Assembly (NCBI GenBank): GCA_002786715.1
Contig: PCTW01000064.1
Location: 58,047 to 122,046, forward strand
Source: Bdellovibrio sp. CG22_combo_CG10-13_8_21_14_all_39_27
Lineage (GTDB): Bacteria > Bdellovibrionota > Bacteriovoracia > Bacteriovoracales > Bacteriovoracaceae
DNA length: 64,000 bases
Reading direction: 5' to 3'
In this document: in pieces, positions 47,143-51,959 of the stretch
Numbering within the stretch: the first letter of the stretch is position 1
How the letters are laid out: each line of letters opens with the position of its first letter
Notes under the pieces: generated by a model
Databases searched by the model: none
Told to the model about the DNA's origin: nothing
The model's input: only the letters and a program-made list of their open reading frames with translations
Translations under genes and position numbers: made by a program

Positions 47143-48438
47143 ATGAAACGAATAATCTTTGCCATTTCACTATTGAGCGCAACTTCACTTTTTGCCCAAG
47201 ATTTTTGGGAGAAGTATAACCGCGATTTTAGTATCAACCCTAAAGATCACGCTCTTTGCTACCAAGTTGGGGATGGCCCTATTCAAGGCTCGAATGTCGA
47301 TCGCAAAGTGACTTTGGCCTCAGTTTCAAAGATGGTCACAACTTACTGGGCACTTAATCAAAAGGGATATGATTATCAATATGAGACGAAGTTTTTAGTT
47401 AAAGGTAAAAAGCTCCATATCACGGGCTCACTTGATCCTGTTTTCTCTTCAAGAAAGTTGTTCTATCTCGTTTCTCAATTTAATAAATTAGGAATTCATG
47501 AACTCGAAGAAATTACTTTTGATGAAAATTTGCGAGTCTTCACAAAAGCAGAGCAGTATGCCGGTACCACTATCAATGTAACTCCAGCACGTACGGCAGC
47601 TAATCTAAAAGATTTCCTTCATACTCCTGATTGGAATTTGCTAAAGGCTGCCTATAAAGACTTTATTGCGACAACTCCAAATTCTGTCATTGAAACATTG
47701 GGACTCGTTCGCGATCTGAAAGATCTTGATCTTAAAGTTGGAAAAGTATCATTCGTTGAGACAGCGCCATTTTCAGAATCAGATTCAGAGGTGCAGACAT
47801 ATACTCATCGTTCTCCAGAAATTGAAAAATACTTGAAGTATCAAAATATTGTTTCTAACAATTATTTTGCTGATCAAATTTTCAACAAACTTGGAGGCGA
47901 AGTCGCTTTTGATCAATTCTTTGATCAATGGATGAAAGATAATCTCCCTGATTATAAGGAACAAAGAGTTGGGTTTAGCGATAGCGATCCTTCTCTCAAG
48001 ATGTATACCGGGTCAGGGTTGGATAGTGTTCGCGATGGAAAAAGAGTCGATAATTATTCTTCATGCTCAGTGATAATGACCATAATGAAGAAAATGGATC
48101 AACAATTGATTGAACTAGAGCGCGAAATTCAAAAAAGTGTAGCAGTTCCAGGTGTTGACCAAGGAACATTTAGAGCACGTCTGAATTCTCCTCGTATTGC
48201 TCGAACTATGATCGCAAAGACTGGAACGCTTATGCATACATCTTCGTTGACAGGTATCCTCTCAACTGTGAAGGGCAAAGTTGCTTTCGGCATTTTTCAC
48301 CAAATGACAGGAGCGAAAGGCAATGCTAAGATCGTTCAAGACAAAGTCGTCGACAAACTCTTTGAACTTAATGATGGATCAGTAAAGTTCGATTACAAAC
48401 CAGAGTTTTTCTTTCCAGCTTATGAGGAGCTTAGATGA
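47143..48438 (+). CDS. dacB: PBP4-type D,D-carboxypeptidase/endopeptidase (peptidase S13)
   Basis: A 431-residue periplasmic enzyme of the DacB family that trims D-Ala and cuts 4-3 cross-links in peptidoglycan. The signal peptide is MKRIIFAISLLSATSLFA. The active site is S60-V-S-K63, then S238-N-N240, then K359-T-G. It is shorter than E. coli PBP4 (477 residues), as are predator versions. I chose the ATG at 47143 because it starts the signal peptide and has GGGGGA upstream; the frame extends further but without a site. It is coupled by ATGA to an ankyrin protein, the same order as Bd3459-Bd3460 in Bdellovibrio bacteriovorus. Confidence 0.92.
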   Translation: MKRIIFAISLLSATSLFAQDFWEKYNRDFSINPKDHALCYQVGDGPIQGSNVDRKVTLASVSKMVTTYWALNQKGYDYQYETKFLVKGKKLHITGSLDPVFSSRKLFYLVSQFNKLGIHELEEITFDENLRVFTKAEQYAGTTINVTPARTAANLKDFLHTPDWNLLKAAYKDFIATTPNSVIETLGLVRDLKDLDLKVGKVSFVETAPFSESDSEVQTYTHRSPEIEKYLKYQNIVSNNYFADQIFNKLGGEVAFDQFFDQWMKDNLPDYKEQRVGFSDSDPSLKMYTGSGLDSVRDGKRVDNYSSCSVIMTIMKKMDQQLIELEREIQKSVAVPGVDQGTFRARLNSPRIARTMIAKTGTLMHTSSLTGILSTVKGKVAFGIFHQMTGAKGNAKIVQDKVVDKLFELNDGSVKFDYKPEFFFPAYEELR

Positions 48439-49151
48439 TCAAGAGAGTAGCGATCGTATTTTTTTCAGTTGGTATTTTAGTGGCCTATTTTATGAATGCT
48501 CATAAAGGCTCAAAAAAAGATATTCAAAATATGAGCTCTAAGACTGAAGATGCCCTTCAAAAGATTGAAGAACCATCAAATGGACCAGAGAGTGAAGAGA
48601 GTGTTGAAGATGATGGGGCTGCTGCAATCGAAGAAGGTAATGAGCAATCATTAAATCAATGGATTCAAAGAGGAGGAGACTTCAATGCTTTGACAGCTGA
48701 CGGATCTTCACTTCTCATGCTTGCAATAGATCAAGATTGCGAAGCTTGCGTACAAACTCTTTTAAAAAGTGGCATTAATATTCATGTGGTCAATCAAAAT
48801 GGTCAAAGCGCTTTAAGTTCTGCAATTATTTCTGGAGACACAGAATTGGCAATCGAGCTTTTAAACCGTGGAGCAAGTCTCGAGTCTTATACAAACCCCG
48901 CTCGATATACATTACTGATGCAAGCAGCATCAACAGGTCAAGATAAATTAGTTAAGGTCATCAGTGAAAAACATCCTGAAATGGTTAATGCTCAAGATAA
49001 CGAAGGCATGACGGCCTTGATGTATTCTGCCAAAGAAGGTTTTCTTTCAACCGCTGAAATACTCCTTGAAAAGGGAGGTCGCAAAGACCTTGCTAATAAG
49101 AAGGGCGAGACGGCCTCTATTATTGCCAAGAAATTTGGCTTTTCTCTCTGA
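48435..49151 (+). CDS. Membrane-anchored or exported ankyrin-repeat protein, candidate DacB inhibitor
   Basis: A 238-residue protein with an N-terminal hydrophobic signal or anchor (VAIVFFSVGILVAYFM), a charged linker (about 25-65) and five to six ankyrin repeats (about 66-236; units with SLLMLAIDQD, ALSSAIISGD, TLLMQAASTG and TALMYSAKEG). The start overlaps the dacB stop in ATGA with GAGGAG upstream. In Bdellovibrio the ankyrin protein Bd3460 binds and blocks its neighbour endopeptidase Bd3459 to protect the predator from its own enzyme. Shared order and export signal suggest the same job here (inference). Confidence 0.88.
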   Translation: MIKRVAIVFFSVGILVAYFMNAHKGSKKDIQNMSSKTEDALQKIEEPSNGPESEESVEDDGAAAIEEGNEQSLNQWIQRGGDFNALTADGSSLLMLAIDQDCEACVQTLLKSGINIHVVNQNGQSALSSAIISGDTELAIELLNRGASLESYTNPARYTLLMQAASTGQDKLVKVISEKHPEMVNAQDNEGMTALMYSAKEGFLSTAEILLEKGGRKDLANKKGETASIIAKKFGFSL

Positions 49152-49239: not shown

Positions 49240-49695
49240 TTGAAATTACTAGTCCTTTTTCTATTGAGTAGCTTTTATTTTGTTGCAGATGCAAAGGGCA
49301 TCAGTGAGTGGTTGCTTTTAGAGAATAAGAATTCATCTTCGGTCTATTCACTTGATAAAAAGAGCGAAACACTTTTGGTGCTACAGAAATCACAAGACAA
49401 AAAAATTGAAGAATTGAATACCAAAATAGCTAGCGAGTATGAAGAATCAAAGCGTCAGGTTTTAAAGTTGGCGGGAATTGTCGACTGGAAAATTAATCAT
49501 CGTCAATTAACCACCACCCGAATGGAATGGACCGGGTCCTATACAAATGGTCGAAAAGAACTTATTTATTTTTTCGAAGTCCATATGATCACAACTCTAA
49601 AAAATGAAGTTCATTACTTATTAACAAGCCGTTCACCAATTACAGATAAAATGCTGACTGAAGTGAAAGGACAGGAAGGTGAGTTTATCAAATGA
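49240..49695 (+). CDS. Small exported protein coupled to a large exported protein
   Basis: A 151-residue protein with a signal peptide (MKLLVLFLLSSFYFVADA). The mature part is charged and has no cysteine or known motif. The start is TTG at 49240, since an ATG five bases earlier runs into a stop in another frame. No strong ribosome site is seen. Its stop overlaps the ATG of the next gene as ATGA, so the two form a unit. Function unknown. Confidence 0.65.
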   Translation: MKLLVLFLLSSFYFVADAKGISEWLLLENKNSSSVYSLDKKSETLLVLQKSQDKKIEELNTKIASEYEESKRQVLKLAGIVDWKINHRQLTTTRMEWTGSYTNGRKELIYFFEVHMITTLKNEVHYLLTSRSPITDKMLTEVKGQEGEFIK

Positions 49696-51959
49696 AAAAA
49701 CTCATTTCTCTTTTAATATTTAACCTCATCTTTATCCAAAATTTGAATGCAAGTTCATATTGCTCAACTCAACAAACTAATATTGATACACAGAATATTC
49801 ATCATCTATGCCAAGGGATTTTAGAAAACACTATTTGCAAAGAAGTACCAAAAAATAAAATGAAGAAATGTGATGAGCTCAATCAATCATTAGATAGCTC
49901 TTGGGATTATATTCAAGGGTGCGCAAAAGGAGCGCTTGAGTCGGTGGAAGACATATTAGATTTCATTGCCGAAGTGATGAAGTGGTCTTGGCAAGCCATA
50001 ACTGGGCAAAAAGACTGGGGAGCAATGTCAGACAAAGGGATGGCCTTTGGAGAGTCTTCTTTGATGTATCTCAAAACGGAATACTATCGAAGTTATGAGA
50101 GAGAAAGTGAGCCTTTTAGAGAAACAAAAGCGGTTGTTTCAATGGGTGAAAAGATTTCTCAGCTTATACTGACGAAAATAAACGATTACTTAGAAAAAGA
50201 ATATGAAGTCTTTGATCAATGCTTAAATAAAGAGGCCCGAGCTCAGTTGACTTGTAAATTTTTAGGGACTTTCTTTTTGCCGCCAGCTGCGGCCCTTGCG
50301 TTCTTAAAATATGGAAAAAGAGCATTTGCAGAGTATCGAGGACTTGAAAAAGGTGCCGAAGATATTAAGAATTTAATTCCTAATAAGGAATTAGAACTCA
50401 AAGGCAATCATCGCAATCTTGTCGATAGAGAATCATTAGATAAAAACTATATCCATTTTCAAGCAACAACAACAGCAGAGAATACTGCTTGGATTGAAAG
50501 AGCGAGGAAAAGCCATCCCGGTTCATTTATAGAAGTGGAGAATGGTGCTTTAAAAAGATTGAATGATCAACTCGGTGATAAGAATCTTGTCACTGGATTG
50601 ACCAATCTGCATAAAGAATTTTTATTCGAAAAAATTGGGCTCTTTATAAAAAAATATCCAGACCTAAAAATTTCGAAGTACTCTGATTTTAAGTCATCGA
50701 GATTCTCCTTTGAACCAAAGCTTAACGCTTCCCAATGGGATGAGTTAAAAAAACTTATCAACGAATCCAATTTGGAATTTGGTAAAAAAGTAAAAGATCT
50801 CAATCTTCATCCCAAACTTAAAAATGAAAAAAGCGAAACATGGTTTTCATCGGGCTTTGGAGAAACGGCCGATCAGGCAGGAGTGGCTGCACGAGAGTCT
50901 CGAAATGTTGCGCGGTTGAACAATGATCACCCCATTCCCACAATTGATTTTAAGCTGATTAAGGCCAAAGTTGCTGACCACGTTGCCAGTGTCGAAGACA
51001 AACGATTTCTTTTGGTTACTGAATTTAACAAAAGTGAGGCCGGCCGAAAGCTTCTCGAAACAATTCCAGGCACAGATCAAAAAGTTTTTTCTAGAGAAGT
51101 ATTTGAAGCTTTAAGAAAAGGGGATCAGCAGGCCATTTCGATCTTAGATAAAAAATATGGAATCACGTTAGATCAAAGACAACAAGAAACACTGCTCAGT
51201 TATTATCATGGGGTGGATAAATTGGCCCCGGGGATTTGGATTCCGGAGCGAGTTGTTGCTAATCTGGATGATGCAGTGGCTGGTGGATTTAGTGCCGATT
51301 TTGCGGGAATGGGGGCGGCCAATATTGAGCAAGTCGCAAAAGATCTCGCTACTCATAAAGGTAGTGTTGATGAGCTTATTGCGAGCATTAGAAAAGGCGA
51401 AGAGCAAGTTACGGGTGAATTTGAATCCAAAAAATCTCTTTTTAATAATCAAGTTCAAGCGACAATGGAAAAACTCGGTGAGAAATCGATTGTTAAATGC
51501 TCAGGTGACGATTGTGTCTCTTTGGTGAGAACATCACTTAATATCAAGAAGAAAAAGGAAATCATCGGCGATCTTATGATGAAGACGAGTCCTTCGAGTA
51601 TGCGACTCAGTTTTATTCCGCCAGGTATTCCAAAAGCTTTAAGAAGTAAAATTGCTGTCGCAGGCGAAATGATCGAGAAAGAATTAAGAAAAGCGGTGAC
51701 CAATTTGTCACCCAAAGGAATTGCTCCTGAAAAAATGAAAAATGTAATGCTGGCCCTTGATATGCCGAAAGGAGTGAAAGGCGATCAAGTGAATTTGGTC
51801 ATTGGCATCAAGGGCAAAGCGACTCTTACTTCTCAAGAAATTGAAATCCTAAAACAAAATTTTGCTGAATCAGTTAGAAAACTTAAAGGCGAGATCGACT
51901 ACGGTGATGGAGTCGTTCCCAATTACCAACCTGGTCAATTGATTATCGTGCGCAAGTAA
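49692..51959 (+). CDS. Large exported protein of unknown function
   Basis: A 755-residue protein with a signal peptide (MKKLISLLIFNLIFIQNLNA). About seven cysteines in the first 90 residues (CSTQQ, HLCQG, ICKEV, KKCDE, QGCAKG) suggest a disulfide-linked N-terminal domain, followed by amphipathic segments. A short hydrophobic stretch lies near residues 190-205 (CKFLGTFFLPPAAALAF). The remainder is helical, lysine-rich and without a family I recognise. The upstream coupled exported gene may be its partner. A hairpin follows the stop. Confidence 0.7.
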   Translation: MKKLISLLIFNLIFIQNLNASSYCSTQQTNIDTQNIHHLCQGILENTICKEVPKNKMKKCDELNQSLDSSWDYIQGCAKGALESVEDILDFIAEVMKWSWQAITGQKDWGAMSDKGMAFGESSLMYLKTEYYRSYERESEPFRETKAVVSMGEKISQLILTKINDYLEKEYEVFDQCLNKEARAQLTCKFLGTFFLPPAAALAFLKYGKRAFAEYRGLEKGAEDIKNLIPNKELELKGNHRNLVDRESLDKNYIHFQATTTAENTAWIERARKSHPGSFIEVENGALKRLNDQLGDKNLVTGLTNLHKEFLFEKIGLFIKKYPDLKISKYSDFKSSRFSFEPKLNASQWDELKKLINESNLEFGKKVKDLNLHPKLKNEKSETWFSSGFGETADQAGVAARESRNVARLNNDHPIPTIDFKLIKAKVADHVASVEDKRFLLVTEFNKSEAGRKLLETIPGTDQKVFSREVFEALRKGDQQAISILDKKYGITLDQRQQETLLSYYHGVDKLAPGIWIPERVVANLDDAVAGGFSADFAGMGAANIEQVAKDLATHKGSVDELIASIRKGEEQVTGEFESKKSLFNNQVQATMEKLGEKSIVKCSGDDCVSLVRTSLNIKKKKEIIGDLMMKTSPSSMRLSFIPPGIPKALRSKIAVAGEMIEKELRKAVTNLSPKGIAPEKMKNVMLALDMPKGVKGDQVNLVIGIKGKATLTSQEIEILKQNFAESVRKLKGEIDYGDGVVPNYQPGQLIIVRK

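Follow-up and report, generated by a model that had tools for sequence, protein, structure and literature searches.

Two adjacent genes in the window (the 64,000 nucleotides of contig PCTW01000064.1 analysed here) are highly likely to be a self-protection pair of the Bd3459/Bd3460 type in its Bacteriovoracaceae form, in which an exported S13 peptidase is accompanied by a membrane-anchored, periplasmic ankyrin guard. By analogy, the ankyrin protein very probably blocks the endopeptidase, protecting the producer's own wall. Wherever a defining feature gave a clear result, the pair agrees with the Bd3459/Bd3460 kind, and the localization of its guard appears distinct. The self-protection system itself is already known; the part that looks new is where the guard sits.

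The S13 enzyme would be exported via a cleavable signal peptide and would cut DD-crosslinks of prey peptidoglycan. The ankyrin protein, translated from the same mRNA, would sit in the inner membrane, held there by a signal anchor at its N-terminus, and a leash of roughly 40 residues would carry its ankyrin domain into the periplasm. There it would cover the active-site cleft for as long as the enzyme remains in the periplasm of the producer, and it would stay behind when the enzyme passes to prey. By analogy with Bdellovibrio, the guard in this organism would occlude the active site and protect the producer, and the enzyme would be used on prey; retention of the guard by its tether is inferred from sequence features.

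The endopeptidase and the ankyrin protein

Features of the S13-ankyrin pair, in positions of the window
Feature	Position	Strand	Details	Basis
S13 (DacB-like) DD-endopeptidase, predation type	47143..48438	+	431 aa, ATG start	Pfam, PDB, alignment, tree
SxxK motif	47320..47331	+	S60-V-S-K63	sequence
SxN motif	47854..47862	+	S238-N-N240	sequence
KTG motif	48217..48225	+	K359-T-G361	sequence
ATGA start/stop overlap	48435..48438	+	S13 and ankyrin ORFs	sequence
Bd3460-type ankyrin-repeat protein, putative inhibitor of the endopeptidase	48435..49151	+	238 aa	Pfam, profile, alignment
Hydrophobic segment	48447..48500	+	V5-A22; read as N-in signal anchor, not cleaved signal peptide	heuristics
Charged low-complexity linker	48501..48608	+	Lys/Glu/Ser-rich, residues 23 to about 58-60	sequence
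Ankyrin domain	48609..49148	+	five full repeats and a shortened sixth; extended AR3:AR4 loop GASLESYTNPARYTLLM	Pfam, alignments
CxxC	48738..48749	+	C102-E-A-C105, second ankyrin repeat	alignments

The upstream gene encodes a predation-type S13 enzyme, as opposed to a housekeeping PBP4/DacB. The sequence-only reading had called it an S13 protease with intact SxxK, SxN and KTG motifs, and this holds: the Peptidase_S13 match has an E-value of 7e-22, and SVSK, SNN and KTG are invariant in an alignment with 26 relatives. The N-terminus is an ordinary signal peptide of the cleavable type, MKRIIFAISLLSATSLFA-Q. The PF02113 match falls into two separated pieces (profile positions 35-122 and 262-427), in agreement with the reduced middle region of predatory S13 enzymes (PMC3276566). 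Searched by sequence against the PDB, the enzyme matches Bd3459 and Bd0816 and nothing else (E 1e-30 to 6e-26), at 25% pairwise identity to the proven Bdellovibrio S13. A fold search with a model of an orthologous pair places eight Bd3459/Bd0816 chains on top (E 1e-28 to 6e-26, TMt 0.80-0.84), versus E ~1e-13 and TMt ~0.5-0.6 for ordinary enzymes of the PBP4 type.

The second gene begins at an ATGA overlap, as had been read from the letters, and is likely translationally coupled to the first through it. Its product has an Ank_2 match (E=3e-23) and opens with MIKR followed by ~16-18 hydrophobic residues (5-22). In alignments its AR3:AR4 loop is long and its sixth repeat is truncated C-terminally.

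Ankyrin repeats all resemble one another, so specificity was tested by profile comparison. On a profile of the paired ankyrins of Bdellovibrionaceae, the window ankyrin reaches 91.0 bits (89.9 for its best single domain), compared with 57.9 (best domain 24.8) and 47.3 for other ankyrins of its own genome. Against a profile built from the remaining paired ankyrins of Bacteriovoracaceae, the window protein scores 152.5, Bd3460 116 and the best other ankyrin of the window genome 74. A generic consensus ankyrin query reverses the ranking, with 64-65 bits for an own-genome ankyrin and 52.8 for the window protein. The window ankyrin is 30% identical to Bd3460 over 171 residues, and the two share an equally long AR4:AR5 crossover as well as the long AR3:AR4 loop, which are two of the three features in which Bd3460 was described to deviate from consensus ankyrins (PMC4686830). 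Judged by profiles and alignments, the window protein is a member of the Bd3460 family and not a generic ankyrin. Given the low identity to the proven pair (25% for S13, 30% for the ankyrin), interface residues could differ.

A CxxC in the second repeat occurs in five of the 19 clade proteins (the window ankyrin, L044, L048, L050 and L052) and is absent from the other clade ankyrins. Its bearers are the window's own subclade plus L052. A disulfide or a metal site is possible at this position.

Conservation of the pair

The gene-order survey covered 129 genomes of the window's family. All 20 of the closest S13 relatives have an ankyrin gene downstream on the same strand, mostly less than 20 bases away. 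Only 8 Ank_2 stretches occur in the 4.08 Mb of the window's own genome, and together with the 20/20 relatives this argues that the adjacency is not due to chance. In a tree of 136 S13 proteins, a branch with support 100 divides 30 housekeeping from 106 predation-type rows. The window enzyme sits in an 18-row clade of its own family (support 99), and the ankyrin is downstream in 18/18 of these rows, compared with 0/30 of the housekeeping loci. The sole break in adjacency within the clade is at L054 (G130), where a gene of 192 residues lies between S13 and ankyrin. At L056 (G100), a TAG interrupts the S13 frame upstream of an intact ankyrin gene, reflecting either an assembly error or decay.

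Outside the clade the pairing is patchier. The main group of Bdellovibrionaceae has the ankyrin downstream in 20 of 32 rows. The Bd0816 paralog group (L112, L115, L117, L119) has no ankyrin neighbour, in line with published data, and neither do the sister group from genus g5 (19 rows, at most two paralogs per genome) or the large g12 group. Mapped on the S13 tree, the ankyrin-neighbour label changes 9 times, with 5 changes forced by well-supported branches, versus 37 in shuffles. A single origin of the pair with repeated loss is one possible history. Used as a query, a six-row alignment returned nine records from Bacteriovorax, Halobacteriovorax, Bacteriovoracaceae or Bacteriovoracales and one distant acidobacterial match.

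The kinship with Bd3459/Bd3460 proposed at the outset is upheld by sequence, tree and gene order alike. The suggestion of a conserved module stands insofar as the pairing is kept throughout the clade; as a new module it falls away, since Bd3459/Bd3460 synteny in other periplasmic predators is already published (PMC4686830).

In genus g5, an ankyrin-less predation-type S13 paralog is followed by a conserved exported 3D-domain protein (PF06725; L066, L067, L072 and L074). We considered this protein as an alternative guard, and it rather looks like another wall enzyme; when it was modelled with its S13, the second domain was not confident. Upstream of the window pair are genes for a HiPIP and a coproporphyrinogen oxidase. 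Starting 88 bases past the ankyrin gene, two overlapping genes (49240-51959; 151 and 755 aa) both have apparent signal peptides. They match no family, and relatives show no clear equivalent of them after their own pairs. The flanking genes leave our reading of the pair unchanged.

Localization of the putative guard and its predicted contact with the enzyme

The sequence-only reading had pointed to a charged linker after a hydrophobic segment and guessed at a membrane tether. By sequence, this architecture is common to the whole clade and is not a peculiarity of the window ankyrin. The ankyrin domain starts at residue 34-122 in the window's clade (mostly at 60 or later), compared with 10-49 in Bdellovibrionaceae. 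A signal-peptide cleavage site is called in 3 of 19 clade ankyrins, in 16 of their 19 S13 partners and, for Bdellovibrionaceae, in 19 of 20 ankyrins; the contrasts with the clade ankyrins have Fisher p-values of 5e-5 and 4e-7, calculated ignoring shared ancestry and with a rule settled after the sequences had been viewed. The sites in the three clade ankyrins all lie within the hydrophobic stretch, and the window protein is among them, with a weak site. Median 19-residue hydropathy is 2.16 for the clade ankyrins versus 1.35 for their S13 partners. In 16/19 clade ankyrins, positive charge is higher in the N-flank than in the C-flank, which favours an N-in orientation with the ankyrin domain on the periplasmic side. 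By these simple heuristics, the clade ankyrins appear to have an uncleaved signal anchor and a long linker.

The S13-linked ankyrins of L148-L150 (genera g35 and g9) are only distantly related (19-27 bits) and start with a lipobox-like LISC or LFSC. These proteins are probably lipoproteins, to judge from this motif. The N-termini suggest that an anchor retains the guard in two lineages and that a third lineage exports it in soluble form. We tentatively propose, at somewhat less than even likelihood, that lineages differ in how they handle the guard, the window's clade using a membrane anchor with a flexible leash, g9 and g35 a lipid anchor, and Bdellovibrionaceae exporting it in soluble form, and that the CxxC of repeat 2 in the window's subclade is a possible redox- or metal-dependent latch timing release of the enzyme. 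The Bdellovibrio work itself suggested that the guard is retained in the producer (PMC4686830).

Structure prediction of the complex had been proposed as a check. The ATGA overlap shifts the frame between the window genes; therefore an orthologous pair with both genes in one frame (L042) was modelled instead. Several relatives share this arrangement, in which the two genes translate as one natural chain once the stop is taken as a residue. AlphaFold2 was run on the single L042 chain with a 38-row alignment that included the window S13 and ankyrin domain as separate rows. The model has a mean pLDDT of 88.8 and a pTM of 0.85, and the linker (469-518) is its only disordered part. A comparison chain, L066, in which S13 is followed by an unrelated in-frame neighbour, reached a pTM of 0.60. 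The neighbour did not fold, so this value is a baseline for S13 placed alone and not a matched negative. We infer by our own arithmetic that, for a chain of such length, S13 alone would give a pTM of ~0.6 and S13 and ankyrin placed together ~0.8. The prediction, run on the orthologue, speaks to whether the two proteins of that pair touch, and suggests that they do.

The idea that an ankyrin loop enters the active site does not survive comparison with the solved complexes. In these, no ankyrin loop lies in the active site: a helix-turn-helix face covers the cleft, the serine is still reactive, and repeats 4-6 pack on the last helix (PMC4686830). The loop check that had been proposed therefore looks for the wrong thing.

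Comparison with known systems and alternative explanations

The Bd3459/Bd3460 complex is solved and its inhibition shown (PDB 5CEC, 5CER, 5CEA; PMC4686830). The window pair resembles it in its predation-type S13, the ankyrin directly downstream, the repeat register, the extended AR3:AR4 loop and the contact, here predicted for the orthologous pair only. Unlike the window ankyrin with its anchor and linker, Bd3460 has a cleavable signal peptide, after which the repeats begin at once. We take genome G063 to be that of B. bacteriovorus HD100, and its ankyrin agrees with the mature Bd3460 N-terminus that the primers of PMC4686830 imply. Bd0816 is likewise a predation-type S13 of similar fold; unlike the window S13, it has no ankyrin neighbour (L119, L115, L117) and is guarded in trans by Bd3460, which thus guards two enzymes in B. 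bacteriovorus (PMC4686830). This double guarding, cited in the sequence-only reading, is correct for B. bacteriovorus and does not carry over as a parallel, as the window genome has only one S13: it has neither a trans-guarded second S13 nor a separate housekeeping one. Expression of bd3459 is confined to prey contact. Another close counterpart is Bms2102 of Bacteriovorax/Halobacteriovorax marinus SJ, an orthologous S13 (L047, 50% identity) with an ankyrin behind it that also looks tethered. We presume that G008 is this strain; it has one predatory and one housekeeping S13, as does B. marinus. A single predatory S13 plus one housekeeping S13 has been reported for Bacteriovorax marinus (PMC3276566), and the latter (Bms2612; L167) sets H. 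marinus apart from the window genome.

The main rival explanation arises from this difference. The window genome (G000, 99.8% complete) encodes one S13, the paired enzyme. A search with the H. marinus-type housekeeping S13 returned no match but the paired gene (E 7.6e-4), no S11 peptidase scored above threshold, and G150 and G038 likewise have the paired S13 alone. This leaves room for the S13 to do housekeeping, with the ankyrin regulating remodelling of the cell's own wall rather than protecting it from a weapon. However, the enzyme is of the predation type by tree and fold, and kin within the same clade keep the paired S13 beside a separate housekeeping S13; moreover, the search for wall peptidases covered the S13 and S11 classes only. 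We consider the housekeeping role unlikely. HMG-CoA reductase, tried as a marker of predation, is present in nearly the whole family and is uninformative.

An anchor and a long linker would also suit a membrane scaffold that places the endopeptidase at a secretion site or delivers it there, and predicted contact cannot separate an inhibitor from a scaffold. We regard a scaffold in place of an inhibitor as very unlikely, given the complete in vitro inhibition that the related Bd3460 exerts on its partner, and the rounding up of predators that lack Bd3460 (PMC4686830). Spurious similarity is a concern for generic repeats (138 PDB sequences are listed for the window ankyrin), and an unrelated, perhaps cytoplasmic, ankyrin could lie beside an S13 gene by accident. 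The probability of such chance neighbours is minimal in view of the order kept in all 20 closest relatives, the ATGA overlap, the family-specific profile scores and the N-in charge pattern. The sequence-only interpretation is partly supported, and self-protection by a tethered ankyrin guard is the reading we prefer.

Two predator families have kept the S13-ankyrin pair, and particular S13 paralogs lack the ankyrin. A guard fixed in the inner membrane across the sister family makes the retention model concrete and testable; swapping the anchor for a cleavable signal peptide should alter who is protected. A tethered guard would bear on the question of how predators free their enzymes from the guard on passage to prey.
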